A DNA stretch of 64,000 nt, taken from the NCBI RefSeq assembly GCF_001655675.1, contig NZ_LYRP01000022.1, positions 248,001-312,000 on the forward strand, in the 5' to 3' direction. Position numbers and translations under genes: made by a program. The notes under the pieces are model-generated. The model did not search any database. It was not told the DNA's origin and was given only the letters and a program-made list of their open reading frames with translations. Shown here in pieces: positions 4,026 through 50,429 of this stretch (the first letter of the stretch is position 1; each line of letters starts with the position of its first letter). The stretch is from Mangrovibacter phragmitis (GTDB lineage: Bacteria; Pseudomonadota; Gammaproteobacteria; Enterobacterales; Enterobacteriaceae).

Positions 4026-5083
4026 TTGATGAGAGTTTAACCGCTATCCGGTTTAATTGTTTCGACCCGCGCTGCCACCAGGTTTTTCTTCAGCTCAGCC
4101 ACAATATGAGCCGCTGGAAGCAGCATGCCAGCGAACGGGCATGGTGGCTGGAGCAAGAAAAACAGTGCCACACGCTGTTTCGCCAGCATGGGTATGACCT
4201 GCAAAGTGGTGTCTGGTACTGCATGATTGCCTGCCAGTGCCATGGCTGGCAAGGTCTGACACATTCGCTCCAGTTACTGGTAAAAGGCCTGGTGAGCCAA
4301 CAAAACCCTTGCTGGCCGCCACTGGCGGCAAAGGACTTGCGGCGCAATTTGCTGGAGTGGTGTTGTTCACAGCTGTTGCCTGTTATTTATGCCTTGCCAG
4401 GGAAAAATCGCAGTGCGGCTTCGCGTATTCAGTTACTGGAAGTGGTGGATCAGTTATACCACCAGGCCGTGGCTCACCAACTGGTGTCTGCCAGCGAATT
4501 TAAGGTGCTGTTTCGCTGGCTGGAAAATGCCGCGCCGTCGGAGAGAGTACCCCAACCCCTTCCGCCAGTTGAGCCAGTGGCGCAGCCTGACAGCAGCACA
4601 GCCAGCATCCCGTTACTGACATGGCGGGCGCGTTGTATATGGGGGGCTTTGGGTGGGGTGGTTGCAGTGATGTTTATGGGAGGTATTTGGGGGCTGGGTA
4701 ATTCCCGTGCGGCATACTATTCTCACCAGCTATGGCCTGATAATGCATGGTATATAAAATGGCGCAAGCAGGCCGAAAAGCATGTGGCCCTTTATCCTGC
4801 TAATCACTCTTATGAGCGGCTAAGCCAGCAGCTAATTGACCTGGAACAGCGCTTACTGGATGCAGAGCATAAACGTACGCCTTATATGACGATTTCTGCA
4901 TTGAAAACCCATGTTTACCAGATGCGTGAAACCTTAAAAATGCAGGAGGCTTTGCTCGAAAACCAACTGAACCAGTTACAGGTACAGCGCAATGACCAGC
5001 AACCTGTTTCGCCTGCAGTGATACAGGCGTTAGAGTTACAACTGGAAGCGCTGCAATACCGTGTGTTGCTTCTCTCCTGGTAG
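4010..5083 (+). CDS. T6SS-associated ImpA_N/VasL-domain membrane protein (TagA/VasL-like)
   Basis: This 357-residue protein combines an N-terminal ImpA-type region (about 1-170, Trp/Cys-rich), a Pro-rich linker (about 180-200), one strong transmembrane segment (about 209-228, rich in Gly, Val and Met) and a C-terminal helical VasL-like domain (about 235-357). That architecture is typical of TagA/VasL proteins, which are related to TssA and, where studied, stop or stabilise the distal end of the growing sheath at the opposite membrane. It overlaps tssH by 16 bases and is the last gene of the operon, followed by a hairpin. Assignment to TagA rather than another TssA class is by architecture and position only. 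Confidence 0.75.
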   Translation: MRSAIIDESLTAIRFNCFDPRCHQVFLQLSHNMSRWKQHASERAWWLEQEKQCHTLFRQHGYDLQSGVWYCMIACQCHGWQGLTHSLQLLVKGLVSQQNPCWPPLAAKDLRRNLLEWCCSQLLPVIYALPGKNRSAASRIQLLEVVDQLYHQAVAHQLVSASEFKVLFRWLENAAPSERVPQPLPPVEPVAQPDSSTASIPLLTWRARCIWGALGGVVAVMFMGGIWGLGNSRAAYYSHQLWPDNAWYIKWRKQAEKHVALYPANHSYERLSQQLIDLEQRLLDAEHKRTPYMTISALKTHVYQMRETLKMQEALLENQLNQLQVQRNDQQPVSPAVIQALELQLEALQYRVLLLSW

Positions 5084-5112
5084 CCATTGTTGGGGCCGGA
5101 TACTGGTCACCG

Positions 5113-5160
5113 GCCTTAACAGCAGACACGGTTTTCTGTTAAGGCTGTTTGGTTTTCTTT
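5113..5160. terminator. Hairpin terminator between the T6SS operon and the convergent membrane-protein gene
   Basis: The arms GCCTTAACAG (5113-5122) and CTGTTAAGGC (5136-5145) form a perfect 10-bp stem with a 13-base loop. On the + strand it is followed by a T-rich tract (5146-5160), so it should end T6SS operon transcription. The stop codon of the opposite-strand gene lies inside the right arm. Confidence 0.75.
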
Positions 5161-5734
5161 TGCCGCAGGCGGCGGCGTTCTTTGGCGCGCTGGCTGTATA
5201 ATTGCTTTGCATGGCGTGCCTGAATACCCAGTTCAGTTTGTTTACGCATAGCCCGGTTATACAGTGCCATATTTGCAACAGTGCGAAAACGGCGAGCATT
5301 CAGCATGGCGTAACTAAAAGTAATCCCACCCAGAGCGATAACTGCCGTGAGCAGATAAGAATGCGCACTGTCACTTTGCCCTGCCAGTGAATACAGGCAG
5401 GCGAAAATCACATACCCGGCCACTATCACCACCGTCACACCAAACTGAATTAAATAGCCTTTCATTGCCCGGTAGTACCCCCGGACACAAAAGCTGAGTA
5501 ATGTTATTAAGCTGGCAATAAACAAGGCAGGGAGCGCAAGCATACCAATAATCTGTATCTGAACAGGCCAGTTAAACAGATGGCATAGCCATTGCCAGAA
5601 CATCCCATGAGCAAGGAGATAACTCAGCAAGGCAAACCCGGCATTCAGGGCCAGGTTATAGGGAGCATCTGGGTGCTTACTGCCGGAATCCAGTGAGTGA
5701 GTGCCAACCAATGCAGCTAATTCCTGAGTGTTGG

Positions 5735-5794
5735 CCTGCCTGATTTGCGCCTCTGTCTGCTTTATCCAGGCCAGAGTGGTGGAGAAGTGTTTCA
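5735..5794. repeat. 60-bp direct repeat, copy 1
   Basis: This copy encodes the conserved KHFSTTLAW-KQTEAQIRQ segment that opens unit 2 of the two-unit membrane protein. It matches 6375-6434 at 58 of 60 positions, while the flanking coding DNA of the two units has diverged strongly. Confidence 0.9.
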
Positions 5795-6374
5795 GGCTGA
5801 TTCTCTTCACAAGCGAGGTTTGCTGCACCCGCTTTTTCGGTGGGAGTGAAGCCAGTTGTGCCTGTTTAAACTCTGCATGGTGATACAGAACCACTTGCGC
5901 CAGTGTGCGAAAACGCCGGGCGCTGAGTAGCCAGAAGCTTAGCCCGGTAAACCCTGCACCTGATGTTGAGGCGACTAATTCCCAGATCTGAATATTCCTC
6001 CCATACAAAAACCGCCCCCAGGTACAGGTAAAAAATCCGGTGGCAATGATGGCGATACCCGCAGCCATAAAAAGGATACTTTTCAGCACGCCAATATATC
6101 CACGCACGCCAGCAATCCCCATAGCAATGATCAACACCAGAAAGCAGCCACCGAACGGCAGAATATGGGTAAAAAAAAGCAGATACAGGCCAGCCAACAA
6201 AGTTAAAAATTGCCGCCCATAGTTTAAGTTGCAAGATAACGAAGGTGTATAAAACCAGACACACAGCCAGCACGTTTGCCAGACCGGGGGGGCTGGGCCA
6301 GAAAGTTTTGAGTGTAAGCCAGATACCTGGCGGTGCCAGGCGTTGCATAATTTCCTTTAGCGCTGTGGCATCTG

Positions 6375-6434
6375 CCTGCCTGATTTGTGCCTCTGTCTGC
6401 TTCATCCAGGCCAGAGTGGTGGAGAAGTGTTTCA
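6375..6434. repeat. 60-bp direct repeat, copy 2
   Basis: This is the partner of 5735-5794 at an offset of exactly 640 bases. It encodes the N-terminus of unit 1. The offset is one base more than a multiple of three, which independently agrees with one extra base between the two units. Confidence 0.9.
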
Positions 6435-6594
6435 TTGTAAGGGGTATCACTCAGGGGTAAATGAATCCGTGGAGAAAGACTGCAGGAAGCCTACAGCATA
6501 ACGCCCGGAATGGAACGGGTCTGCCAGAGGGTGAAATGTACCTGTCAGCCAAGGGCTGGGGCAACCTTTTGGGGTAAAAATCAGACCAGGTATT

Positions 6595-6618
6595 CAGGCC
6601 ATTCTGAAAGATGGCCTG
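6595..6618 (-). terminator. Hairpin downstream of the M20 hydrolase gene
   Basis: CAGGCCAT (6595-6602) and ATGGCCTG (6611-6618) form a perfect 8-bp stem with an 8-base loop, 33 bases beyond the stop of the last gene of the leftward operon. There is no clear U-run on the minus strand, so intrinsic termination is plausible but not certain. Confidence 0.45.
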
Positions 6619-6650
6619 TGTGTTAGGCTGGGTGGTGTGTGCGGGCGTCT

Positions 6651-7790
6651 TTACGCTGATGATGCCATGGGGTCTTTCATCCAGCCCGCAATGATTTCAC
6701 CATACAGGCTTTGTGCCTGTTCCAGTTTGTTCACCTCACAATATTCATCCGTTTGGTGTGCCATGGCGGGTTCCCCTGGCCCGAGAATAATACAGGGTGG
6801 ATTTCCCAGCGCAGGTAACAGCAGCGAGGCATCGGTAAAGTAAGGCACGATTCGCGGTGTAAGTGGTGTGCCATGTAGTGGCTGGCAGAGCGCGAAAACC
6901 GCCTGAATCCACGGGTCTTGCGGGTCCGTCAGAACGGCGGGCAGGTCGACCTGCGCTTCCAGGCGAATATGTTCGCCAATATGGTGATGCAGCCGCTGGC
7001 AGATATCACTGTGGCTCAGATTCGGGGCGGTGCGGATATCCACATCAAACACAGCGCGGTCCGGGACTGAATTAATGTTCAGCCCACCGTGAATGCGGCC
7101 AACATTCAGAGTTGGGTGGCGCATTAACGGGTGATCCGGCCCGGGTGAAAAATGCTGGATTTTTTGCAGTGCGTCTGCCGCCAGGTAGATGGCATTGACA
7201 CCCAGTTCAGGCATGGCTCCGTGGGCTGTCTTGCCAGTTGTTTCTGCCCGCAGCCAGAGCGCACCTTTATGCCCAATCACCGGGTAATTGGCTGTGGGTT
7301 CGCCCACAATCAACGCTCCTGGCGCGGTACCGGCCAGGCCCGACTCCAGCAATGCCCGCGCACCATCACACCCGGTTTCTTCGCCACCGGTCAGCCACAA
7401 GGTGACCCCCGTACCAGCACGAATGGCCGCCCGTTGTGCATCACAGGCACCAATAAATGCGGCAATGGCGGCTTTCATATCGCTGCTGCCACGCCCATAC
7501 AGGCGGCCGCCCACGATATCTTTGCCGAACGGGTCATACTGCCACTGTTGCTGGCCCAGCGGCACGGTATCCAGATGCCCGGTAAACCCAAGTGGCGCAC
7601 CTTGAGTATCGCCCGGTAACCGGGCAACCAGGTTGGTACGATTTTCGCCAAAGGGTAACAGGCTTACTTCAAACCCGCGCTCTTCCAGGTGGCTGGCAAG
7701 AAATGCCATGCAGGCGTGTTCATTGCCCGGCGGGTTTATGGTGTTGAACCCGAGTAACTGCCGGGAAAGGGCGATGAGTGGTGTCGTCAT
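6651..7790 (-). CDS. M20-family metallo-amidohydrolase (ArgE/DapE/YlmB-like)
   Basis: This 379-residue zinc-dependent hydrolase cleaves an amide bond (N-acyl, N-formyl or peptide) in the cytoplasm. Metal-site motifs of the M20 family are visible: GHLDTVP (His), SSDMKAA (bridging Asp), GGEETGCDG (catalytic Glu pair), GEPTAN (Glu/Asp) and MAHQTDEY near the C-terminus (His). The central dimerisation domain with HGGLNINSVPD is intact. The start at 7790 gives an ATGA overlap with the stop of the preceding gene; the frame could extend upstream to 7856 inside that gene, which is unlikely to be used. It is the last gene of the LacI-controlled operon. ArgE itself is an alternative name, but the context of a sugar-type importer and TenA argues for a dedicated catabolic or salvage role such as deacylation. 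Confidence 0.85.
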   Translation of the reverse strand: MTTPLIALSRQLLGFNTINPPGNEHACMAFLASHLEERGFEVSLLPFGENRTNLVARLPGDTQGAPLGFTGHLDTVPLGQQQWQYDPFGKDIVGGRLYGRGSSDMKAAIAAFIGACDAQRAAIRAGTGVTLWLTGGEETGCDGARALLESGLAGTAPGALIVGEPTANYPVIGHKGALWLRAETTGKTAHGAMPELGVNAIYLAADALQKIQHFSPGPDHPLMRHPTLNVGRIHGGLNINSVPDRAVFDVDIRTAPNLSHSDICQRLHHHIGEHIRLEAQVDLPAVLTDPQDPWIQAVFALCQPLHGTPLTPRIVPYFTDASLLLPALGNPPCIILGPGEPAMAHQTDEYCEVNKLEQAQSLYGEIIAGWMKDPMASSA

Positions 7791-8545
7791 GAGCGGGCCT
7801 GAGTGAGCCAGTCCAGCGCATTGATCCACAGGCGGCGGTAACCGTCCCACTGGCAAAATTCATCGGGGAGCCAGTGAGCAGACATATCGCTGGTCCAGGC
7901 CAGAGTACGGCCTTTTTGGTATTCCCGCACCGCCAAAAGTGGGTGCCCGGTGCCAGATACGGTAGCAAGCAACTGGCCATCCGGGTGCATTTCGACTTCG
8001 TTATAGCCCAGCAGCCACGGCCATTCGCCTGCCAGCCCGTCCAGCACCGGGTGTTGGGTAATGCACTCTGCGCTGGCGCCTTCCGGCACTTCTACCCGGT
8101 CATCCCAGGGCAGGCAGCGCACCGGCAAAACTTTCTCGACTGCGGTATTGCGGTAGCGGGCACCGCCATTGATACCCTGAAAGCTGAAGTAACCGCCAAC
8201 CATCATCAGGTTCCCGCCCCCGGCAACATAATCATGCAGTAACGTTAAGCGATTGGGGGTTCGGCGGCTTTTCAGCCAGGTGTCCGGGTGCAGCAGCAAG
8301 GTGTTCGCACCAATGTCGGACAAAATAATCACATCCCACGCCTGTAATGCTTCAAGAGTGGTGGGAAACTGGGCCTGGGCCTCATGCGCGGGCATGTGGG
8401 TGACCTGGTAGTCACTCTCTTTCAGTGCCACGAGAAAAGCATCAGCCCCGGTGTGGTAAGTGGCCGTGTAGAACTGGTCAAACCCTTTTACATGTGTGGC
8501 GCTACTGGTCCAGGATTCGCCGACCAGTAAAACAGACTTTTGCAT
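7787..8545 (-). CDS. Glutamine amidotransferase-like protein (class-I GATase fold)
   Basis: The 252-residue product resembles the putative cytoplasmic class-I glutamine-amidotransferase-like family often found beside sugar ABC transporters. It starts with a beta strand and a GESW loop (VLLVGESWTSS), carries a flavodoxin-like core (WDVIILSDIGANTLLL) and a Gly-rich turn (GGGNLMMVGGYFSFQG). I do not see a convincing GATase nucleophile-elbow Cys, so catalysis by the classical Cys-His-Glu triad is doubtful; ligand binding or a different hydrolytic role is possible. The start at 8545 is supported by AGGAG about eight bases upstream. It overlaps the M20 gene by four bases and lies 13 bases after the phosphotriesterase-family gene. 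Confidence 0.7.
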   Translation of the reverse strand: MQKSVLLVGESWTSSATHVKGFDQFYTATYHTGADAFLVALKESDYQVTHMPAHEAQAQFPTTLEALQAWDVIILSDIGANTLLLHPDTWLKSRRTPNRLTLLHDYVAGGGNLMMVGGYFSFQGINGGARYRNTAVEKVLPVRCLPWDDRVEVPEGASAECITQHPVLDGLAGEWPWLLGYNEVEMHPDGQLLATVSGTGHPLLAVREYQKGRTLAWTSDMSAHWLPDEFCQWDGYRRLWINALDWLTQARS

Positions 8546-8558
8546 GGATAAACTCCTG

Positions 8559-9638
8559 TTACCCGCCAAATACGCGTTGCGGGTTGGTTATCATTAGTGT
8601 TTCCAGTTGTTCGCCAGTAACGCCGTGGCGGCGTAAGCGGGGCACGAAATGTTTGAGGATGTAGCCATAACCATGGCCGCCATAACGGGTGAGCATGGTT
8701 TTCAAAAACACATCCTGGGAAAGCAGCACCTGGTGAATAAAACCGGCGTCAATCAGTTCGCGAACAGCACGGGCATTTTCTTCATCGGAAGGCGACTGGG
8801 CAGATTCGTCGGCATAGTAGTAGCTCATGCCAATCATGTCGTACTCCAGAAACGCGCCCCGTTTCGCCAGGCTGTGTTGGTAGGCTTTGTCGGCAAAACT
8901 GGGGTTCATGTGGCACAGCACGGTATGGCGCAGGTCTGCCCCTTCTTCTTCCAGAATATCCAGCACCTTGTGGCCCAGCCGCTCCCAACCCGGCAGGTGG
9001 ACTTCAATGGGGACCTGGGTTGCGGCATTGGCGCGCCCGGCAGCCCGCAGCGATTTCTCTTCTTCCGGTGTGAAGCGGCTGGAGATGCCAATTTCGCCAA
9101 TTAACCCGGCGATCACGTCTGGTTTTTCATCCATACCGCCCAGGTCGTAAATCAGTTTGTCGGCCAGCGTCTGGATATCCAGGGTTTTGGCCCAGTCCGG
9201 GTGTGATGGCTCCAGGTATAACCCGGTGCCCATCACAATATTCAGACCAGTGAGCCGCGAGATACGCTGCAACGCATGGGGATCCCGGCCAATGCCAAGG
9301 TTAGTTGGGTCAACTACGGTTTCTCCACCCAGCGCGCGGTATTTCATGAGCTCTTCAATAGCGACATCTGCATCGAACAACTGGCAGTTATCACGGCTCA
9401 TTAACGGGTTAAGCGATAATTCCCCAAGGTTCTCGATACTGACCGGCGCTTCGGCAATATGACGGTCGCTGCAACAGCACGGCGGAACCCACTTGCCTGC
9501 CGCATCCAGCAAAATATGTTCATGCATCAGTGTGACGCCCATTTCCCCAACAGGCAGTGGCCCGAGCACGGTCATCACACTGCCACTGTTCACACCAACG
9601 GGCAGCGGTGTGGGGTGGCGAAAAATTGAACCCTTCAT
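8559..9638 (-). CDS. Phosphotriesterase-family metal-dependent hydrolase (PHP-type)
   Basis: This is a 359-residue amidohydrolase-superfamily TIM barrel. The binuclear metal site reads as HEH near residue 39-41, then Glu in LIGEIG at the position where true phosphotriesterases carry a carboxylated Lys, His in IEVHLPG, His in VLCHMNP and Asp in LLSQDVF. A Glu bridge is a feature of phosphotriesterase homology proteins, many of which hydrolyse lactones or phosphorylated sugar lactones rather than organophosphates. The start at 9638 has AGGAT six bases upstream. It is four bases after the permease gene and part of the LacI-regulated operon. A lactonase or esterase step on the imported compound is the most reasonable inference; the substrate is unknown. 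Confidence 0.85.
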   Translation of the reverse strand: MKGSIFRHPTPLPVGVNSGSVMTVLGPLPVGEMGVTLMHEHILLDAAGKWVPPCCCSDRHIAEAPVSIENLGELSLNPLMSRDNCQLFDADVAIEELMKYRALGGETVVDPTNLGIGRDPHALQRISRLTGLNIVMGTGLYLEPSHPDWAKTLDIQTLADKLIYDLGGMDEKPDVIAGLIGEIGISSRFTPEEEKSLRAAGRANAATQVPIEVHLPGWERLGHKVLDILEEEGADLRHTVLCHMNPSFADKAYQHSLAKRGAFLEYDMIGMSYYYADESAQSPSDEENARAVRELIDAGFIHQVLLSQDVFLKTMLTRYGGHGYGYILKHFVPRLRRHGVTGEQLETLMITNPQRVFGG

Positions 9639-9641
9639 GAG

Positions 9642-10652
9642 CTATCCTTTTGCGGCAGAACGGGTGGGGTTAAGAATGCGGGTGTTAAGCCAGATGGCGA
9701 GCAGGATGATGCAGCCCGTGGCAATCTGGGTATAGAACGGTGAAATATGGGACAGGATCAGGCCGTTCTGGATAACCGCAATGGAGAGCGCGCCCAACAA
9801 AGTGCCGATGATAGTGCCAAACCCGCCAAACAGGCTGGTACTGCCCAACACCACAGCGGCAATAACCTGGAGTTCGAAACCTTCGCCCTGGTTGGATGAG
9901 CCACTACCGAGGCGGGCGGTGATTATCATGCCAGCCAGTGCCGCGGCCATGCCACTGAGCATGTAAACACGCATCGTCACTGACTGGGTTTTGATTCCGC
10001 TGCGGCGTGCACCTTCGTTATTTGCACCAATCGCGGTGACATAGCGGCCAAAACGCATATGGTTCAGCGCAAAATGGGCAATGATCAACACCGCGATACC
10101 GATCAGTGCGGGCATTGGGATGCCAACCACCCATGCCCTGCCCATAAAGGTAAAACCACTCCCGGCCGGAACCGGTATGGAATAGCCCTGGGTTATCAGC
10201 AGTGCCACACCACGAACGACCGCCAGCGTTGCCAGCGTGACAATAAACGCGGGGATCCCTTCACGGGCGATGAAAAAGCCATTAATAAGGCCTATCAGTG
10301 CGCCAACCGCCAGGCCGCCAATAAATACGACAGGCCAGGGCAGGCCCCAGTGATTCAGCGCAATAGCCGACAGCGCGCCCACCAGAGCCAGTGTGGATCC
10401 TACGGAAAGATCAATACCGCCAGTGGTTATCACAAAGGTCATGGCGCTGGCGACAATCAATAGTGGCGCAGTCTGGCGGATAATATTCAGCCAGTTATTG
10501 CCAGTCAGAAAGTAGTTGGTGATGAGCGTGAACACCAGGCAGCAGAACACGAAAAATAGCGCGATACTCACCACGCCGGAGTGGTTGTGCAAAATGCGTT
10601 TGGGCAGGCTGTGCTGCAGGACGCGGGGGCTGGACATATTAATGGTACTCAT
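9642..10652 (-). CDS. Ribose-type ABC transporter permease (RbsC-like)
   Basis: The 336-residue inner-membrane permease of a carbohydrate-uptake (CUT2) ABC importer has eight to ten hydrophobic segments and the RbsC-family hallmarks TTGGIDLSVGS (about residues 76-86), ARRSGI and AVVLGSTSLFGGFGT. It would form a homodimer with the ATPase encoded just upstream and receive substrate from the binding protein at 13087. The start at 10652 is chosen for GAGGGG eight bases upstream; an upstream extension to 10706 overlaps the ATPase gene and lacks a ribosome-binding site. Ten bases separate it from the ATPase gene. Confidence 0.92.
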   Translation of the reverse strand: MSTINMSSPRVLQHSLPKRILHNHSGVVSIALFFVFCCLVFTLITNYFLTGNNWLNIIRQTAPLLIVASAMTFVITTGGIDLSVGSTLALVGALSAIALNHWGLPWPVVFIGGLAVGALIGLINGFFIAREGIPAFIVTLATLAVVRGVALLITQGYSIPVPAGSGFTFMGRAWVVGIPMPALIGIAVLIIAHFALNHMRFGRYVTAIGANNEGARRSGIKTQSVTMRVYMLSGMAAALAGMIITARLGSGSSNQGEGFELQVIAAVVLGSTSLFGGFGTIIGTLLGALSIAVIQNGLILSHISPFYTQIATGCIILLAIWLNTRILNPTRSAAKG

Positions 10653-22108: not shown

Positions 22109-23002
22109 TTATAAATTGGCGGTTAAAAAGTTACTGACGGTTTTCATACACTGCTCGCGTTCTTCAACATGAGGCATGTGGCTTGAATCTTCAAAAATAA
22201 CCCACTGCGCACCGGCAATATTGTCGGCAAAGGGCTGTACCACCTCGGGGGCGGCTTCGTCGTAACGGCCTGAAATCAATAAGGTGGGAACGTTAATGGC
22301 GCTTAACCGGTCGATAATCGTCCAGTCTTTCATGGTGCCAATAACATGAAATTCTGTCGGTCCGTTCATTGCGTGGTAAACCGTAGGGTCTTCATCCATA
22401 GCGTCAAAAGTACGGCGCACTTCCACCGGCCAGGGGTCGAGTCGGCAAACATGGCGCTGGTAAAATACCTGGCTGGCGGTTTTATAGGCTTCGCTGTTCA
22501 GTGTGCCTGCGGTTTCATGCTCCAGCAGGGTAGCCTGAACCTCTGGTGGTAATTCAGAACGTAGTCTGGCCGCCGCCGACAACCAGAGTGCCATAGATGC
22601 CGGGGAATTGGCGATGACCAGTGCTTTCAGTCCGGCAGGCTGGCGTACTGCGTGCTCGGCTGCCAGCATCCCTCCCCAGGATTGCCCCAGAAGCGCATAG
22701 TCCTGTTCAATACCTAAATGCTTAAGCAGGTTATCCAGTTCTTCCAGAAAGAGTGCCGGGTTCCAGAAATCTGTGGGCATGTCGGGCAAGTGTGTGGAGT
22801 TACCATTACCGAGTTGATCATAGTGAATAACAGGCCGTCCGGTGCGGGCGATATCACGAAAAGCATCAACATAGTCGTGGGTACAACCCGGGCCACCATG
22901 GGCGACCACCAGAGGCGTGCGCCCCGTATGGAGACTGCCGCAAATACGAAACCAGGTCTGGTATTCCCGAAACGGAGCATAGCCCTCTTGGATGGTATAC
23001 AT
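22109..23002 (-). CDS. Proline-iminopeptidase-like alpha/beta hydrolase (left copy)
   Basis: The 297-residue S33-family hydrolase has the oxyanion motif HGGPG (about residues 35-39), the nucleophile elbow GQSWGG (Ser near 109), the acid in ISGRYDE and the catalytic His in SSHMPH. Pip genes beside LuxR solos of the OryR/XccR/PipR class are a known pattern, and their activity is needed for virulence or signal processing in some plant pathogens. A lux-box-like palindrome sits 65-82 bases upstream of the start codon, right after the regulator gene, so transcription from that site should give only this gene. A paralogue lies on the other side of the regulator. The start at 23002 lacks a strong ribosome-binding site. 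Confidence 0.88.
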
Positions 23003-23066
23003 GGCTGCTGTTTACCCTGTGATGTGAATGTTTGCTCAGGGTAGAACGCAGCCGCATGCAGTGAAT

Positions 23067-23084
23067 ACTAGTAAAAATGCTAGT
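23067..23084. promoter_or_regulatory. lux-box-like palindrome, left
   Basis: ACTAGTAAAAATGCTAGT has perfect ACTAG/CTAGT arms around eight bases. It lies between the 3' end of the LuxR gene and the left hydrolase gene, its centre 73 bases from that start codon. A TTCTAC -10-like hexamer on the minus strand (23041-23046) sits where a class II activator would need it. Confidence 0.7.
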
Positions 23085-23086
23085 TC

Positions 23087-23839
23087 TTAACTGTCCAGTA
23101 AACGGTAGTGCAATGCGCGTACCACCGCCTGAACCCGGTTACTGGCTCCCAGTTTCTTCGCCGCGGTGTTCAGGTGCAATGTTACGGTGGCTACTGAGCG
23201 GTGTAACTTGCGGGCAATTTCTTTGGCTGTCAGCCCTTCTGCGGACCAGGTAAGACATTCGCGCTCGCGGTTGCTGAGTTTGACATGGCGACAGGTCAGC
23301 ATTGATGCATCGAATAGCGGGAATGCGCTTTCCTGGAAACGGTGGGCGATAAAGGTCAGTTGCGCCAGGTTGTCAATGACATCCCGTTCCTGATGGGGTG
23401 CGGTCAGGATACCGGTCAGGGTGACAAAACCACCCTGAGGCAAGTGGAGCGGTACAGTTGCGCCGCATGGCATATCGTGGTCACGCATGTAATGAGTCAC
23501 CGGTTTATGCTGGTCGTTAAGCCGCCCGCGCAGAGAGGTGTAATCCGGGCGTTGATAAGACCACACAAAAGGCGCGCAGCTTTCCAGTGCGCAGTGTTGT
23601 ACCGGGTCAACCTGGTAATAGCCCTGATCGCACCAGCGCTGGCGCATATCGTCCGGTACGTTGTGCATCCGTAACAATGACGGCGTGATCAATTCCCCTT
23701 CCAGTGAACGGGGGACGGGTGTGTAGTCATAAATAACCGCGTCAAAGCCCAGCGTCTGTGTCTGGTCAAAAAGCGCAGCGAACGCATTATCCAGTCCATT
23801 GGGAAATGATGAACCAGGGTGCTGAATAGCGGGTTGCAT
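23087..23839 (-). CDS. LuxR solo of the plant-responsive (OryR/XccR/PipR) subfamily
   Basis: The 250-residue regulator has an N-terminal autoinducer-binding domain and a C-terminal LuxR helix-turn-helix (LSNRERECLTWSAEGLTAKEIA). No luxI is present nearby. At the TraR Trp57/Tyr61 positions it carries Met and Trp (DDMRQRW), the substitution pair that defines the plant-associated LuxR solos, while Asp70-Pro71 (VDP), Trp85 (FVW) and Gly113 (PCG) equivalents remain. Such proteins respond to plant-derived compounds rather than acyl-homoserine lactones; Pseudomonas PipR responds to an ethanolamine derivative. The start at 23839 is set by GGAGGGG a few bases upstream. It is flanked by two Pip-like hydrolase genes and followed across the intergenic region by a peptide-type ABC importer. 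Confidence 0.93.
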   Translation of the reverse strand: MQPAIQHPGSSFPNGLDNAFAALFDQTQTLGFDAVIYDYTPVPRSLEGELITPSLLRMHNVPDDMRQRWCDQGYYQVDPVQHCALESCAPFVWSYQRPDYTSLRGRLNDQHKPVTHYMRDHDMPCGATVPLHLPQGGFVTLTGILTAPHQERDVIDNLAQLTFIAHRFQESAFPLFDASMLTCRHVKLSNRERECLTWSAEGLTAKEIARKLHRSVATVTLHLNTAAKKLGASNRVQAVVRALHYRLLDS

Positions 23840-23967
23840 GTTCCCCTCCATTTTCTGTCTGTGCCGTGAACGGCATGGTTTGTGCAAAACCTTTTCAGTC
23901 TGTAACGCTTTATATGCAAATACAGTGCCATTAATTGACTGTTTTTTGTACTGACCTGGCAGGCAAA

Positions 23968-23985
23968 ACTAGTATTTTTGCTAAC
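23968..23985. promoter_or_regulatory. lux-box-like site, right
   Basis: ACTAGTATTTTTGCTAAC matches the left site at ACTAGTA, the central T-G and CTA, with an imperfect right arm. Its centre is 82 bases upstream of the right hydrolase start, so it probably drives the hydrolase-ABC operon. Confidence 0.65.
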
Positions 23986-24058
23986 TGTTCAGTGCCTGAC
24001 GAAGCCGTTAGCGTAAGGAAAACACCCGCGAATTGAATAACGGGCACCGGAGGGAAAT

Positions 24059-24958
24059 ATGTGGAGCGAAATTCAGCCAGATAAACGCCATGATATTACG
24101 GTTAATGGCTACAACGTGGTTGCCTGGGAGTTTGGTGAAGGTGACGACGTCGTTCTTTGCCTGAATGGCGGGCCGGGGTTGCCCTGCGATTACTTGCGTG
24201 AAGCCCACTCCTGCCTGAAACAGCAGGGCTACCGGGTGGTGGCTTTTGACCAACTGGGGACGGGAAAATCCGACCGTCCGCAGGACCCGCGCTTCTGGAC
24301 AATGGAGCGCTATGTTCAGGAAGTTGAAACAGTACGCCGTGCGCTGAATCTTGGGAAAGTGCATTTGTTGGGGCATTCATGGGGCGGCTGGCTGGCTATT
24401 GAAGTGGCATTGCACCACCCTGGTGCGATTCGTAGCCTGATCCTCGAAAACACGGTGGCGGATATGCCCCATTTGGTGCAAGAGCTCAACCGCCTGCGCG
24501 AGGCTCTGGGGCCAGAAACGGTTGCGATGATGCAACGTTATGAAGCTCTGGGCTGGCTGAGTCACCCACAATACCAGGCCGCAGTCACCTTGCTGAATTA
24601 CCGCCATGTTTGCCGGCTTGATGTCTGGCCTGCTCCGGTAAAGCGTTCCCTGGAAGACTGGAATATGGGGCCTTACGAGACAATGCAGGGGCCGAATGAG
24701 TTTCTCTATACCGGTAATTTAAAAGACTGGGACCGCAGTGCTGATTTGCACATGATTCAGGTGCCCTGCCTGATTACCACCGGCCAGCATGATGAACTGA
24801 CACCTGCCTGTGCGATGAAAATGAAGCAGGGTCTGCCCCAGGCGGAACTGCATGTATTCCCCAATAGTAGCCACATGCCGTTTTATGAAGAACCCCAGGC
24901 CTATTACCCGGTCCTGCTGGATTTTCTTGAACGGCAGCGTAGCAGAGGAGGCGACTGA
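24059..24958 (+). CDS. Proline-iminopeptidase-like alpha/beta hydrolase (right copy)
   Basis: This 299-residue paralogue of the left hydrolase has the motifs NGGPG (residues 36-40), GHSWGG (nucleophile Ser near 109), TGQHDE (acid) and SSHMPF (His). The two copies share the segment NYRHVCRLDVWP / [12 protein letters not shown], so they come from a common ancestor, but they are well diverged. GGAGGG seven bases upstream gives the start at 24059. It is the first gene of a six-gene operon: its TGA overlaps the ATG of the first ABC permease. It may cleave a peptide or amide taken up by the importer, or process a signal; the substrate is unknown. Confidence 0.88.
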   Translation: MWSEIQPDKRHDITVNGYNVVAWEFGEGDDVVLCLNGGPGLPCDYLREAHSCLKQQGYRVVAFDQLGTGKSDRPQDPRFWTMERYVQEVETVRRALNLGKVHLLGHSWGGWLAIEVALHHPGAIRSLILENTVADMPHLVQELNRLREALGPETVAMMQRYEALGWLSHPQYQAAVTLLNYRHVCRLDVWPAPVKRSLEDWNMGPYETMQGPNEFLYTGNLKDWDRSADLHMIQVPCLITTGQHDELTPACAMKMKQGLPQAELHVFPNSSHMPFYEEPQAYYPVLLDFLERQRSRGGD

Positions 24959-25896
24959 TGCACCGTTACCGGTTTCTGCTGTTTCGCCCCCTGCAATTGC
25001 TGCCAGTTTTGCTGGGAATAAGCATTATCACGTTTGCCATGGTGCGCGCCATCCCGGGTGACCCGGCGCGCATTTTACTTGGTGTGCGCAGTACTCCTGC
25101 AGCACTGGCCCGTATTCGCGCCCAGTTTGGCCTCGATGAACCCTTATGGGTGCAGTATCTCTATTTTCTGCGCAACCTGCTCCATGGAGAACTGGGTAAG
25201 TCCATTGTTTACCGGGTTGATACCCTGAAGTTAATAAGCTCCCGGCTGGAGCCAACAATCTGGCTGGTGGCAGGGAGTGTCCTGTTGGCAATTGTGATTA
25301 CCATTCCTCTGGCTGCCATGGCTTCACGTCATAGAGGAGGAGTGTGGGATCAGTGTATTCGCTTGTTTACCACCGCCGGGCTGGGTTTTCCTGCCTTTTG
25401 GCTGGGAATAATGATGATAATCGTGTTCAGCGTGACGCTGGGCTGGTTCCCGGTTTCGGGTTATGGCGATGACCTGACCGAACGCCTGCACCACATGGCT
25501 TTGCCGTGTTTTACGGTGGCGCTGGCGTTATCGGCGGTGCTGATTCGCAACCTGCGCGCCAGCCTGCTGATGGAAATGAGCAGTGATTATGTGGTGGCTG
25601 CCCGGGCACGGGGCCAGCGGGAATCACGTATCTTCTGGCGGCATGTGTTACCGAATTCACTGGTGCCAACCATTAACCTGCTGGCGGTTAACATTGGCTG
25701 GCTGATTGGCAGCACGGTAGTGATAGAAAGTGTGTTTGCCATACCCGGAATGGGGCAGTTACTTATCAAAGCGATTTTCAGCCGGGACTATATGGTGGTT
25801 CAGGGCGTGGTGATTGTTTTTGCACTGGCGACGGTCACCGTTAACCTGGTGGCGGATGTGCTCACAGTTGCTCTGGACTCGAGGGTGAAACTATGA
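24958..25896 (+). CDS. Oligopeptide-type ABC importer permease 1 (DppB-like)
   Basis: This is a 312-residue inner-membrane permease with six predicted helices. Family marks include the N-terminal LLPVLLGISIITFAMVRAIPGDPAR, the EAA-loop region AARARGQRESRIFWRHVLPNS and the final segment IPGMGQLLIKAI. It pairs with the DppC-like gene that overlaps its end by four bases. GGAGGC upstream supports the start, which overlaps the hydrolase stop. Substrates of this family include di- and oligopeptides, opines, glutathione and nickel complexes. Confidence 0.93.
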   Translation: MHRYRFLLFRPLQLLPVLLGISIITFAMVRAIPGDPARILLGVRSTPAALARIRAQFGLDEPLWVQYLYFLRNLLHGELGKSIVYRVDTLKLISSRLEPTIWLVAGSVLLAIVITIPLAAMASRHRGGVWDQCIRLFTTAGLGFPAFWLGIMMIIVFSVTLGWFPVSGYGDDLTERLHHMALPCFTVALALSAVLIRNLRASLLMEMSSDYVVAARARGQRESRIFWRHVLPNSLVPTINLLAVNIGWLIGSTVVIESVFAIPGMGQLLIKAIFSRDYMVVQGVVIVFALATVTVNLVADVLTVALDSRVKL

Positions 25897-26744
25897 ACCT
25901 GACCTTGTCTGCAAGTGTGGCGCAGTGGCGGCGGCGTTTTATTCCGCGCCAGCACGCGCTGGTAGCTGGTGCCTGCATTATCGGGTTGTGGTTACTGGCC
26001 GCAATTTTTGCGCCATGGCTGGCACCTTTCGACCCTATAAACCAGGACCCGTCAGTGAGCCTGCTCCCTCCTGGTGGTGTTCATTTGTTTGGTACCGATA
26101 ACTTCGGGCGCGATATTTTTTCCCGCGTAGTGTGGGGCGCACGCGTGGATCTGCAAATTTGCCTGCTGGGGGTGATTTTCCCGTTCTCGCTGGGAACAGT
26201 GCTGGGGGCTCTTTCTGGTTACCTGGGCGGTGTTGTGGATGCAGTCGTTATGCGCGTCATTGATATCGTCCTGGCTTTTCCTTTCCTGGTTCTGATGCTG
26301 GCAATCATCGCCATTCTGGGGCCCGGGCTCGGCAGTTTTTATATTGCGATGGCAATGGTGGGCTGGGTGTCATATGCCCGCCTGGTGAGGGCGCAGGTGT
26401 TAACCCTGAAACAGCGTGATTTTATTCTCGCCGCGCGCAGCCTGGGGTACAGCCACACCCGTATTCTGTTTCGCCACTTATTGCCCAACGCGCTGACGGG
26501 CGCACTGGTGTTCTCCATGTCTGACTGTGTTCTGGTTCTGCTGAACGGGGCCGCGGTGAGTTACCTCGGCTTAGGCGTTCAGCCGCCAACTGCTGAATGG
26601 GGCGTGATGGTGGCTGAAGGGCAGAGCTTTATTACCACCGCCTGGTGGATAACCACCTTCCCCGGGCTGGCAATTGTAATGCTGGCAATGGGGTTCAGCC
26701 TGCTGGCTGATGGGTTAGGTGACCGGTTAGGAGAGCGCGTATGA
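25893..26744 (+). CDS. Oligopeptide-type ABC importer permease 2 (DppC-like)
   Basis: The 283-residue second permease has an N-terminal OppC_N-like segment (WLLAAIFAPWLAPFDP), followed by HLFGTDNFGRDIFSRVVWGAR, which is the family hallmark, and the EAA loop AARSLGYSHTRILFRHLLPN. Five to six helices are visible. It overlaps its neighbours by four bases on each side, so the operon is translationally coupled. Confidence 0.93.
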   Translation: MNLTLSASVAQWRRRFIPRQHALVAGACIIGLWLLAAIFAPWLAPFDPINQDPSVSLLPPGGVHLFGTDNFGRDIFSRVVWGARVDLQICLLGVIFPFSLGTVLGALSGYLGGVVDAVVMRVIDIVLAFPFLVLMLAIIAILGPGLGSFYIAMAMVGWVSYARLVRAQVLTLKQRDFILAARSLGYSHTRILFRHLLPNALTGALVFSMSDCVLVLLNGAAVSYLGLGVQPPTAEWGVMVAEGQSFITTAWWITTFPGLAIVMLAMGFSLLADGLGDRLGERV

Positions 26745-27724
26745 CCTTACTGGATGTCTCACAACTGACCGTGACAACCGCAAACCAGGTGACGCTGGTG
26801 GATGGCATCAGCTTTCGTCTGGCTGAAGGGGAAATGTTAGGCCTGGTTGGGGAAAGTGGTTCAGGTAAAACAGTGACCTGCCGTGCGCTGATGCGTTTGT
26901 TACCAGGGCAGGGGCTGCGCATTAGCGGGGGAAGTATCATCCTTGCCGGGCGTGATCTTGTTGCCCTGAGTGAGGCGCAGATGGCGGGTGTTCGCGGGCG
27001 GGAAATCGGTATGATTTTCCAAAACCCGACCAGCCACCTTAACCCGGTGATGACGGTGGGTGAGCAAATTGCCGAGAGCCGCCGCCTGCACTTTGGCGCC
27101 AGCCGCAGGCAGGCGCGGGCCGATGCCCTGGATTTTTTGCGCCAGGTGGGGATCCCTGACCCACAAAACCGGGCAAAAAATTACCCACATGAGTTTTCTG
27201 GGGGCATGCGGCAACGGGCAATGATTGCGGTTGCACTGGCGGCAGAACCACGCCTGTTAATTGCCGATGAGCCGACGACTGCGCTGGATGTCACCGTGCA
27301 GATGCAGATCCTGCGTTTGCTGAGCGATTTACGCAGTGAACTGGGCGTGGCGATGATAATGATTACCCACGACCTTGGAGTGGTGGCGCAAACCTGTGAC
27401 CGTATCGCAGTAATGTATGGCGGCCGGTTGTGTGAATCAGGCGGAAAACGCGAAGTGCTCCACCACGCGGCGCACCCCTACACTCAGGGCCTTATTGATT
27501 GCCAGCCACAAAGTGAAGGCAGTGCCGGGTATTTGAAAACCATTCCCGGCCAGCCACCAGTGGCAAACCATTTTCCTGAAGGGTGCCGGTTTCACCCGCG
27601 TTGCCATGCAGCCAGTGAAGCCTGTCGCCAGCAACAACCCGCACTGCACTATACACAGAACAGCCTGTCTCATGCCGCGGCCTGTTTTCACCCCTTTCAA
27701 CCACTAACACAGCGGGAGGGATAA
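26741..27724 (+). CDS. Oligopeptide-type ABC importer ATPase 1 (DppD-like)
   Basis: The 327-residue nucleotide-binding protein has Walker A GESGSGKT, signature [12 protein letters not shown], Walker [13 protein letters not shown] and the switch His in ITHDLGV. The C-terminal oligopeptide_HPY domain carries the Cys-rich motif [15 protein letters not shown], which in relatives binds an iron-sulfur cluster. It would form a heterodimer with the DppF-like ATPase encoded directly after it. Confidence 0.94.
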
Positions 27725-28761
27725 TGGCGAAACAGGAAAGCTGGCCGCTTTTGGAAGCGGAAAACCTGAGCGTAACTTTTCCGGCCGGAGGCGGTTGGGG
27801 ACGCGCGCGGCGCGTTGTTCACGCGGTTAATCAGGTAAGCCTGGCAATTTCACCAGGAGAAACACTCGGGCTGGTGGGTGAGTCTGGTAGTGGCAAAAGT
27901 ACTCTTGGCCGGGCGCTGTTGCAACTGGAACGTCCGGCAAGTGGCGAAGTACGGTTTGATGGTATGCGTATTACCCATGGGTTGCGCAGCGACGTAGCTC
28001 GCCTGCGCCAGCAAACTGCCATGATTTTTCAGGACCCGTTCTCATCACTGAACCCGCGCCAGACTATTGGCGAAAGCATTGCCGAAGTGCTGCGGGTGCA
28101 TCGCAAAGTCCCCACGGAGAATATTGCCGGGCGAGTGGATGAATTGCTGACGCTGGTGGGTTTAAGCCCCATGCAGGCAGCATCCAAACCCGGCCAGCTC
28201 AGTGGCGGGCAATGCCAGCGGGCAGGTATTGCCAGGGCGCTGGCGATTGAACCACGCTTAATTGTGGCAGATGAATGTGTGGCGGCGCTGGATGTTTCTA
28301 TTCAGGGGCAAATCATTAATTTGCTGATGAGCTTACGCGAGAAAATGGGGCTGGCGATTCTGTTTATCGCCCACGACCTGGCCATTGTGCGCCACTTATG
28401 TGACCGCGTGGCGGTGATGTATTTGGGGCGTATTGTTGAACAGGGGCCGTCTGAAACGGTGTTCTCTCATCCGCGCCACCCGTATACCGCTGCACTGGTA
28501 GCCGCGATTCCCGAAATCGACCCGGATAAACCGCTCCCTGCCCAACCATTGGGCGGCGAGCCTCCCAGCCCGATAGCGATTCCGGCCGGGTGTGCGTTTC
28601 ATCCGCGTTGTCCATATGCCCAGGCACAATGTTGCACTGGCGCACCACCACAGACCCGGCATGTTGCCGACCATAGCTGGACCTGCGTGTTAGCTCATGC
28701 AGGCGAAGAGACTGTATTTCCGTTGACTGGGGGAGTGTTGAATGAAGCGCAAGCACGTTAA
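27724..28761 (+). CDS. Oligopeptide-type ABC importer ATPase 2 (DppF-like)
   Basis: The 345-residue ATPase partner has Walker A GESGSGKST, signature LSGGQCQRAGIA, Walker B LIVADECVAALD and the switch His in IAHDLAI. One feature is unusual: Walker B reads DECVAALD where the family normally has DEPVSALD, so the Pro after the catalytic Glu is replaced by Cys. The Glu itself is kept, so activity is expected. The C-terminal HPY motif GCAFHPRCPYAQAQC is present. It overlaps the DppD-like gene by one base and the binding-protein gene by 20. Confidence 0.94.
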   Translation: MAKQESWPLLEAENLSVTFPAGGGWGRARRVVHAVNQVSLAISPGETLGLVGESGSGKSTLGRALLQLERPASGEVRFDGMRITHGLRSDVARLRQQTAMIFQDPFSSLNPRQTIGESIAEVLRVHRKVPTENIAGRVDELLTLVGLSPMQAASKPGQLSGGQCQRAGIARALAIEPRLIVADECVAALDVSIQGQIINLLMSLREKMGLAILFIAHDLAIVRHLCDRVAVMYLGRIVEQGPSETVFSHPRHPYTAALVAAIPEIDPDKPLPAQPLGGEPPSPIAIPAGCAFHPRCPYAQAQCCTGAPPQTRHVADHSWTCVLAHAGEETVFPLTGGVLNEAQAR

Positions 28762-30256
28762 ATTGGCAGCAGCAGGGTTATTGTTGGCATTGAGCGCCAT
28801 GAGTGAACTGGCACAGGCAGCCGGTATTTTAACCATTGGCCGTCGTGAAGACAGTACCACGTTCGACCCGATTAAATCGGCGCAAAATGCGGATAATTGG
28901 GTGTTTTCCAATGTGTTCGACCCACTTATTCGGGTAGATAAGACTGGCACCAAACTTGAACCTGGTGTGGCGGAAAGCTGGACTATCTCACCCGATGGTA
29001 AGGTGTATACATTCAAAATCCGTGATACCAAATTTTCTGATGGCTCACCACTGACCTCTCACGATGCGGCCTTCAGCTTGTTACGTATTCGGGACAACGC
29101 AGGATCACTGTGGCGCGATTCCTACAGTAATATCGCTAAAGTGGAAACCCCGGATGACCGCACACTGGTGATTACCCTGAAAGCGCCAGCGGCACCTTTC
29201 TTATCGCAACTGGCATTGCCTAATGCTTCGGTGATTTCAGAAAAAGCACTGAAAGCGGAAGGGGAAGATGAGTTTGCTGAAAAACCTGTCGGCTCTGGCG
29301 CGTTTCGTGTGAAAGAGTGGGTGCGTGGTGAGAAAGTGGTTCTGGAGAAGAACCCACTGTTCTGGCAGGCGAAAGATGTCAGCCTGGATGGAGTCGAGTG
29401 GCTGACCATCCCGGATGATAATACCCGTATGCTGAAAGTGCAGGCTGGCGAACTGGACGCTGCGCTCACCGTGCCGTTTTCGCGCATCGCTTCCTTACAA
29501 AAAGATAAAAACCTGACAGTTGAACTGGATCCTTCTACCCGTGAAGATCACTTGTTGATCAACCATTCTCACGGCGCCCTTGGCAAAGTAGCGGTACGCC
29601 AGGCACTGGATTTTGCCATTGATAAAGACGCGATTGTTAAAACGGTGACTTTTGGTTACGGCCAGGTGGCGAATTCCTATATTCCTGCGGGCGCGCTGTA
29701 CCACTACAGTGATAACCTGCGCCGCCCTTATGATCCGGAAAAAGCCAAAGCGATGCTGAAAGCTGCCGGGGCATCGGATTTGGCGCTGAACTATGTGGTG
29801 AATGCGGGCGATGAAGTGGATGAACAAATCGCTATTCTGCTGCAGCAGCAACTGGCAAAAGCCGGGGTGAAAGTTAACTTACAGAAAGTGGATCCAAGCC
29901 AAAGCTGGGACATGCTGGTGGCCGGTGATTACGATATTTCTGTGATGTACTGGACCAACGATATTCTCGACCCGGACCAAAAAACCACATTTGTGCTAGG
30001 CCATGACGCGAACATGAACTACATGACCCGCTACCACAATGAGAAAGTGAAAGCGCTGGTTGCTGCGGCTCGCCTGGAAATGGACCCGAAAAAACGTGAG
30101 CAGATGTACATCAGTCTGCAAAAAATGGCCAAAGCCGACGTGAACTGGATCGATCTGTATTACAGCCCGTACCGTAATGTCAGCCGTAAGAATATTAAGG
30201 GTTTCTACCAGAATCCGTTAGGCCGTTTTTTCCTGGAAAATACAGTTAAAGAGTAA
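28742..30256 (+). CDS. Periplasmic peptide-type substrate-binding protein (DppA/SBP_bac_5)
   Basis: The 504-residue binding protein is the last gene of the Pip-ABC operon. It has a signal peptide (MKRKHVKLAAAGLLLALSAM, cleavage after QAA or QA) with no lipobox Cys, so it is a free periplasmic protein. The cluster C binding-protein pattern is visible: FDPIKSAQNADNW, EPGVAESWTISPDGKVYTFKIRD in part, and GSGAFRVKEW. Its place at the end of the operon, after the ATPases, is uncommon, since the binding protein is more often first. It probably sets the specificity for the compound perceived by the LuxR solo. Confidence 0.93.
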   Translation: MKRKHVKLAAAGLLLALSAMSELAQAAGILTIGRREDSTTFDPIKSAQNADNWVFSNVFDPLIRVDKTGTKLEPGVAESWTISPDGKVYTFKIRDTKFSDGSPLTSHDAAFSLLRIRDNAGSLWRDSYSNIAKVETPDDRTLVITLKAPAAPFLSQLALPNASVISEKALKAEGEDEFAEKPVGSGAFRVKEWVRGEKVVLEKNPLFWQAKDVSLDGVEWLTIPDDNTRMLKVQAGELDAALTVPFSRIASLQKDKNLTVELDPSTREDHLLINHSHGALGKVAVRQALDFAIDKDAIVKTVTFGYGQVANSYIPAGALYHYSDNLRRPYDPEKAKAMLKAAGASDLALNYVVNAGDEVDEQIAILLQQQLAKAGVKVNLQKVDPSQSWDMLVAGDYDISVMYWTNDILDPDQKTTFVLGHDANMNYMTRYHNEKVKALVAAARLEMDPKKREQMYISLQKMAKADVNWIDLYYSPYRNVSRKNIKGFYQNPLGRFFLENTVKE

Positions 30257-50115: not shown

Positions 50116-50202
50116 TGGTGCGAGGGGAGGGACTTGAACCCTCACGTCCGAAAGGACACTAACACCTGAAGCTAGCGCGTCTACCAATTCCGCCACCTTC
50201 GC
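50116..50202 (-). tRNA. leuQ: tRNA-Leu (anticodon CAG), third of the array
   Basis: An 87-base tRNA with encoded CCA: acceptor GCGAAGG, anticodon loop with CAG in CTTCAGGT, long class II variable arm (GTCC-TTTC-GGAC) and GTTCAAGTCC T-loop. Same position and anticodon as E. coli leuQ/leuP/leuV upstream of rsmC; the individual letter is assigned by order. Confidence 0.95.
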
Positions 50203-50229
50203 ACAGTAAGAGATATATCGTTTTCGCAT

Positions 50230-50316
50230 TGGTGCGAGGGGAGGGACTTGAACCCTCACGTCCGTAAGAACACTAACACCTGAAGCTAGCGCGTCTACCA
50301 ATTCCGCCACCTTCGC
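50230..50316 (-). tRNA. leuP: tRNA-Leu (anticodon CAG), second of the array
   Basis: Same 87-base tRNA as its neighbours except in the variable arm, which reads GTTC-TTAC-GGAC: one stem C is replaced by T, giving a G-U wobble. All else, including the encoded CCA, is identical by eye. Confidence 0.95.
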
Positions 50317-50342
50317 GCAGTGCGAACGATATCAGTGATTAT

Positions 50343-50429
50343 TGGTGCGAGGGGAGGGACTTGAACCCTCACGTCCGAAAGGACACTAACACCTGAAGCT
50401 AGCGCGTCTACCAATTCCGCCACCTTCGC
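50343..50429 (-). tRNA. leuV: tRNA-Leu (anticodon CAG), promoter-proximal
   Basis: An 87-base tRNA identical by eye to the third copy. It is first in the transcript driven by the promoter at 50470-50497. Spacers between copies are 26-27 bases. Confidence 0.95.

Follow-up and report, generated by a model that had tools for sequence, protein, structure and literature searches.

The DNA analysed here, referred to as the window, is a 64,000-nucleotide stretch of Mangrovibacter phragmitis (contig NZ_LYRP01000022.1, positions 248,001 to 312,000), and its positions 22109-30256 hold eight open genes encoding a LuxR solo regulator, two hydrolases of the proline iminopeptidase family and an ATP-binding cassette (ABC) importer (Table 1). 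A preliminary description of this DNA had recognized the LuxR solo, both hydrolases and the overlapping five-gene importer at the same positions, and every part of that layout was confirmed. The regulator gene is separated from pipA by 84 bases and from aapA by 219 bases, and consecutive gaps of -1, -4, -4, -1 and -20 bases from aapA through aapF make an overlapping operon; family scans and these gaps place the right-hand hydrolase in one operon with two permeases, two ATPases and a binding protein, as had been proposed. With a divergent aapA and a five-gene importer that includes AapF, the locus is the Mangrovibacter copy of the gene set known from Pseudomonas sp. GM79 and is not a new system; all eight genes are 96-100% identical in two other Mangrovibacter loci. 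What is added here is a pair of near-identical predicted operators before both hydrolase genes, kept across importer-bearing enterobacterial loci.

Table 1. Genes and predicted operators of the M. phragmitis locus (window positions)
Feature	Positions	Strand	Basis
pipA-type hydrolase, proline iminopeptidase family, 297 aa	22109..23002	-	TIGR01250 273.2 bits; nearest solved 7a6g, E 5.5e-146; motifs read in the sequence
Lux-box-like operator before pipA, AACTAGCATTTTTACTAGTA	23066..23085	-	Predicted; centre 73.5 bases before pipA start
PipR/OryR-type LuxR solo, 250 aa from ATG	23087..23839	-	Pfam PF03472 (Autoind_bind) 88.1 bits, PF00196 (GerE) 58.4 bits; Met/Trp pocket pair
Operator before aapA/importer operon, AACTAGTATTTTTGCTAACT	23967..23986	+	Predicted; centre 82.5 bases before aapA start
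aapA-type hydrolase, 299 aa	24059..24958	+	TIGR01250 282.7 bits; alignment to 1mt3
Importer permease aapB	24958..25896	+	PF00528, PF19300
Importer permease aapC	25893..26744	+	PF00528, PF12911
Importer ATPase aapD	26741..27724	+	PF00005, PF08352
Importer ATPase aapE	27724..28761	+	PF00005, PF08352
Periplasmic binding protein, AapF orthologue, 504 aa	28742..30256	+	Match to 7kz8/7kz9

The luxR start is best placed at the ATG at 23839, which is preceded by GGAGGGGAAC, and an upstream TTG was disfavoured relative to it. A pocket alignment against RhlR and QscR (TraR itself was not among the aligned sequences shown) set M66 and W70, in a numbering that counts one codon ahead of the ATG, opposite the Trp and Tyr of these two receptors, confirming the Met/Trp pair of OryR/XccR/PipR type that had been read earlier; the same pair occurs in 41 of the 45 rows of our LuxR tree, the four Pseudomonas-like rows carrying Trp/Trp. 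The Autoind_bind and GerE domains, the change of TraR W57/Y61 to Met/Trp, an adjacent pip gene, a predicted inverted-repeat operator before pip and no luxI by PF00765 place the protein among the plant-associated bacteria (PAB) LuxR solos typified by OryR, PipR and PsrR. The earlier statement that luxI is missing was borne out by a negative PF00765 search of the genome, other kinds of N-acyl-homoserine lactone (AHL) synthase not having been searched; a 14-genome control also gave no match, and a sample of 99 genomes of the order, 18 of which matched (the cut-off being exceeded in 16, and E falling below 1e-20 in 7), serves as the positive control. The genome encodes one further autoinducer-binding protein (C1:561217-561624), judged SdiA-like by inspection and from the neighbouring ABC ATPase gene. 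The nearest named LuxR proteins are those of M. yixingensis and M. plantisponsor (96% identical), and that of Klebsiella michiganensis DSM 25444 is 78% identical. Separately, the luxR of Enterobacter sp. EA-1 (L022, 10001-10750) contains three in-frame stops and is followed by a pip without a match to the GxSWGG motif.

Both hydrolases score above the curated TIGR01250 cut-off of 167.65 bits and share 34% identity over 270 residues, which upholds the description of two diverged proline-iminopeptidase-like genes flanking LuxR. They retain the GxSWGG, DE, GPxEF and SHMP motifs (in AapA as GHSWGG, GPNEF, GQHDELTP and SHMP, with NGGPG instead of HGGPG), and both carry the catalytic Ser/Asp/His and two Glu of the N-terminus pocket, residues whose roles we take to be those in 1mt3. 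Among relatives NGGPG was found in 19 of 20 AapA rows and HGGPG in 46 of 47 PipA rows, the two exceptions being simply rows without a motif-search match and the rows holding some genomes twice. For the GM79 enzymes, alanine is preferred by AapA and proline by PipA (PMC4981722; this paper and PMC7301841, PMC11064500 and PMC10134790 are used throughout as excerpts). The binding protein matched AapF (7kz8, 7kz9) without gaps over 479 residues (E 2e-229), the second-best solved protein reaching only E 3.5e-54, and was assigned to family 5 by the family scan. In the pipA leader, a 17-base inverted repeat (82% complementary; window 23003-23053) lies right before the start codon.

The two operators match the pattern sites AACTAGCATTTTTACTAGT (23067-23085, minus strand) and AACTAGTATTTTTGCTAAC (23967-23985, plus strand), and each is followed 22 bases later by a TANNNT hexamer in the -10 position, TACCCT on the pipA side and TAGCGT on the aapA side, with conservation clearer in the upper (aapA-side) promoter. 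The pattern was written from the window's own two sites, so its score is circular in the window and not in other loci; the window holds two matches with no mismatch, and even when up to three mismatches were allowed, a pair of matches arose in two of 100 shuffles. All 30 importer-bearing enterobacterial loci (L003/L087 and L022/L088 being the same genome twice, as other pairs may be, and permease C being undetected in L022 and L088) carry an upper site scoring 17-18 of 20 and a lower site scoring 15-19 of 20, and the same two operators are present in the two other Mangrovibacter loci. Throughout seven searched genomes the sites with at most one mismatch were solely the two at the Pip locus. 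A wider regulon is not proposed, as off-locus sites all had three mismatches and total matches fell below the reversed-pattern control in each of the seven. Furthermore, a motif-free test, which compared the best 20-mer common to both promoters with 100 shuffles in 27 loci chosen from 48, gave a value that no shuffle reached in 9 of 16 enterobacterial loci, including Mangrovibacter L001, the nearest relative tested, and in five of six rhizobial-type loci, the sixth being reached by two of 100.

The likeness to published systems is extensive. GM79 aapA-F/pipR/pipA shares gene order, orientation, a close-packed importer operon, the AapF orthologue and an inverted repeat whose centre lies 71.5 bases ahead of pipA (PMC4981722). 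It differs in its Trp/Trp pocket (PMC7301841), as against Met/Trp in Mangrovibacter, and in the small effect of PipR on aapA (PMC4981722), whereas the Mangrovibacter aapA operator is near-identical to that of pipA. The enterobacterial KoyR system of K. michiganensis LDS17 has Met57/Trp61 and an ABC cluster; a 2024 description gives it pip genes flanking the regulator on either side, each with a lux-box-like repeat in its promoter, and it differs in genus, with no difference of layout apparent in the excerpts (PMC11064500). Kosakonia KO348 PsrR is likewise a Met/Trp LuxR with a downstream pip and adjoining importer genes (PMC7301841), but the six named Kosakonia loci examined have no aapA and carry Glu at position 58, where Mangrovibacter has Arg. 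Sinorhizobium meliloti NesR, in a review table, also has pip on either side of the LuxR gene (PMC10134790), as do the rhizobial-type plasmid loci L093, L095 and L096 with their divergent importer; these three differ in a LuxR about 50% identical, in another operator, CCTATNASTTNTNATAGCT, and in having, instead of two ATPase genes, a single one of roughly 1.7 kb that is probably a fusion. According to the excerpts, an ABC importer is not linked to the Xanthomonas loci (PMC4981722), and the review names some single-pip members, such as PsaR2, and groups these solos, those of Enterobacter and Kosakonia included, into a single conserved subgroup (PMC10134790). A literature search combining Mangrovibacter, LuxR and proline iminopeptidase gave no mention of Mangrovibacter among the matches listed; subscription papers lay largely outside it, so this is not proof that the locus is unpublished.

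To place the two-hydrolase layout, 295 genomes of the family were surveyed for LuxR (E 1e-40). Twenty-two carried it, with both hydrolases in five (three of which belong to the same genus as the window), an importer permease without luxR-adjacent aapA in 14, and neither in three. No AapA orthologue was found elsewhere in the 17 genomes without luxR-adjacent aapA at E 1e-12 (one of them, G123, is 49% complete), the best match in each being the luxR-adjacent PipA paralogue at 33-39% identity, and the three importer-less genomes (G175 and G292, Trabulsiella; G366, same genus code) gave no binding-protein match at E 1e-60. A named collection of 23 loci showed both hydrolases in 7, no aapA in 12 and no importer in 4 (L024, a 62-residue match from Flavobacterium, was dropped from the original 24, and L014 reaches only 1.5 kb upstream of luxR). 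At class level a LuxR search at E 1e-30 found the own genome alone among 369, so distant loci were reached through the binding protein and plasmids. The binding protein was present at E 1e-150 in 11 of 398 genomes of the phylum, with aapA alongside in 10, including all nine outside the family, and both hydrolases in 8; of the remaining three, a contig end truncates G841, LuxR is missing from G758 and aapA from G129. Eight of the nine outside-family genomes have LuxR-bearing loci with aapA, and the ninth has aapA and no LuxR. The two-hydrolase form is a minority within the family and usual in the outside-family sample, so that the earlier impression of a less common layout held for the family (5 of 22) and failed outside it (8 of 9 genomes sampled by binding protein). 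As a rare or new arrangement it was rejected, since the search for the same gene layout elsewhere found it in GM79, the published KoyR, the three rhizobial-type plasmids and a Klebsiella variicola plasmid.

Plasmid records with a LuxR of this type come mostly from plant-associated genera (Rhizobium in 121 of 150), and six of the 150 records were looked at. The K. variicola plasmid NZ_CP103421.1 (378 kb, typed conjugative) carries the whole eight-gene system (L091, 2614-10833), bordered on both sides by IS110 and IS1 family transposase genes. The Aureimonas plasmid pAU20c (L094, 7889-15592) speaks against the two-hydrolase form as the usual one, as do the Xanthomonas loci and the single-pip members of the review; there a LuxR of the family stands with one divergent pip, and a distant, different ABC importer lies downstream in the usual pip place. 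Locus L075 of G758 (3694-9900) is an aapA-importer operon in a genome without a match to the window LuxR at E 1e-15.

The aapA position is identical in rhizobial-type, Pseudomonas-like and enterobacterial loci. On the LuxR tree, from which L087-L090 were omitted together with any rows that duplicated earlier ones and L075 (no LuxR), the two-hydrolase label needs at least five changes, three of them forced by well-supported branches; the tree is blind to gain versus loss, and transfer of whole cassettes is another way in which the label could become scattered. Loss as the direction is read from a remnant in L082 (G235), where two aapA pieces (residues 1-33 and 115-173; E down to 1.9e-20) lie between operator and permease, the second being recovered again in the AapA orthologue search. 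Weak traces, all short start-peptide matches, were seen in L003 (E between 1.6e-4 and 0.47, depending on the query), in L083 (E 0.012) and in Lonsdalea (E 0.025 at best), and for the Kosakonia leaders E 2.3 was the lowest value; these E values hold only within a small collection of leaders. In relatives, aapA has probably disappeared on more than one occasion, with a clear remnant in one lineage and the operator kept: importer-bearing loci without aapA retain it at a distance of 97-436 bases from the start of the permease gene. A search for the loss of a second hydrolase gave no literature mention in the titles and abstract starts listed, and as subscription papers lay largely outside it, this is not proof that the loss is unpublished.

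In Trabulsiella L014, L015, L023 and L089 the importer is gone, the upper operator is possibly degraded and the lower one is intact. The lower site scored 19 of 20 in all six Trabulsiella loci and the upper site 15 of 20 in four of the six (two being the same genome), the score in L015 being no better than chance, although there the site is followed at the usual spacing by a conserved GTTAGCGTAA.

Taken together, the gene order and orientation shared with GM79, the AapF orthology, the conserved operators and the negative PF00765 search argue that this is very probably a complete GM79-type Pip system, in which the importer feeds the LuxR solo, the two operators switch on pipA and aapA with the importer, and the hydrolases damp the response; the earlier proposal, an OryR/PipR-type solo accompanied by a pair of Pip-family hydrolases and an importer of its own, is supported. 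The binding protein and importer would, judging from orthology, bring in a small compound of peptide-like or amide nature, probably of plant origin, that binds the LuxR solo; the regulator would then bind both near-identical operators, activating pipA on one side and aapA with the importer on the other, and the importer would reinforce its own expression. The two hydrolases may cut the signal or its product and so damp the response, a step modelled on GM79, in which the importer mutant was unresponsive and hydrolase mutants over-responded (PMC4981722).

Several observations weigh against this reading. A sigma-70 scan of the region returned a single site, which coincides with neither start, where shuffled sequences gave 6.6 on average. 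In the motif-free test the observed value was matched by 2 shuffles of 100 in one further enterobacterial locus and by 7 in another, and no signal appeared in 5 of the 16 enterobacterial loci, in Trabulsiella L015 or in any of the four Pseudomonas-like loci, the last agreeing with the small PipR effect on aapA in GM79 (PMC4981722). In the excerpts of PMC7301841, none of the conditions tried with PsrR, the nearest tested relative, produced pip activity that depended on PsrR, which leaves it unproven for this branch that plant material acts as an activator.

The strongest alternative, which overlaps with the signalling system just described and to which we give a lesser though appreciable probability, is that the locus serves mainly nutrient scavenging, with peptides or amides bearing a proline or alanine head taken up and degraded as food and LuxR acting as a substrate-sensing pathway regulator outside plant-host signalling. 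The aapA-importer operon of the LuxR-less G758 would fit this, as would the response of GM79 PipR to peptone and the peptide Ser-His-Ser (PMC4981722); the predominance of plant-associated genera among the plasmid records and the response of PipR to leaf macerate (PMC4981722) point the other way. Decay or silence of the locus in the Mangrovibacter lineage is very unlikely: among related lineages some are without aapA or the importer and one carries a luxR with stops, but here the eight frames are open, and the near-identical genes and the same two operators recur in both other Mangrovibacter loci. Slightly less likely still is an AHL eavesdropper like SdiA, for the Autoind_bind fold is present but the Trp/Tyr of AHL receptors is replaced by Met/Trp, six AHLs were ignored by GM79 PipR (PMC4981722) and the genome already has its separate SdiA-like protein.

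For the Pip system as we read it, the suggestion of a plant-derived, non-AHL signal is supported, on sequence grounds alone. The further suggestion that the ligand derives from ethanolamine, as in Pseudomonas, was not supported. The GM79 effector, N-(2-hydroxyethyl)-2-(2-hydroxyethylamino)acetamide (HEHEAA), is obtained when hydroxyethylglycine is coupled to ethanolamine (PMC7046293). Kosakonia PsrR showed no pip induction by rice root macerate, ethanolamine or HEHEAA (PMC7301841, excerpts), and the review reports that a close binding-protein homologue from another species does not bind HEHEAA (PMC10134790, excerpts), so AapF orthology leaves HEHEAA as effector unsettled and an ethanolamine-derived ligand cannot be assumed for Mangrovibacter. 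Position 58, named as a difference between PsrR (Glu) and PipR (Lys) (PMC7301841), does not sort cleanly, being Arg in the window LuxR, Glu in six Kosakonia rows and Glu or Gln in the Pseudomonas-like rows. HEHEAA, an amide of an N-alkylated glycine, resembles prolinamide, and a proline-type aminopeptidase could therefore split off ethanolamine. We offer as a tentative and rather doubtful idea that the hydrolases destroy the signal itself and that enterobacterial lineages adjust their sensing by discarding aapA as one of two off-switches, its operator being retained to drive the importer; the degraded-looking upper and intact lower operator of Trabulsiella, where the importer is gone, would be expected if selection acts on each promoter separately. 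The locus represents an intact Met/Trp two-hydrolase Pip system in a plant-associated enterobacterium, beside a natural series of relatives without aapA or importer, and this series could reveal the contribution of each hydrolase and of the importer, and any tie of aapA loss to Kosakonia unresponsiveness.

Around the locus, MFS, DoxX, LacI and GntP-like genes form the same neighbourhood in M. yixingensis and M. plantisponsor. Elsewhere in the window, three tandem tRNA-Leu (CAG) genes lie at 50116-50429 on the minus strand.

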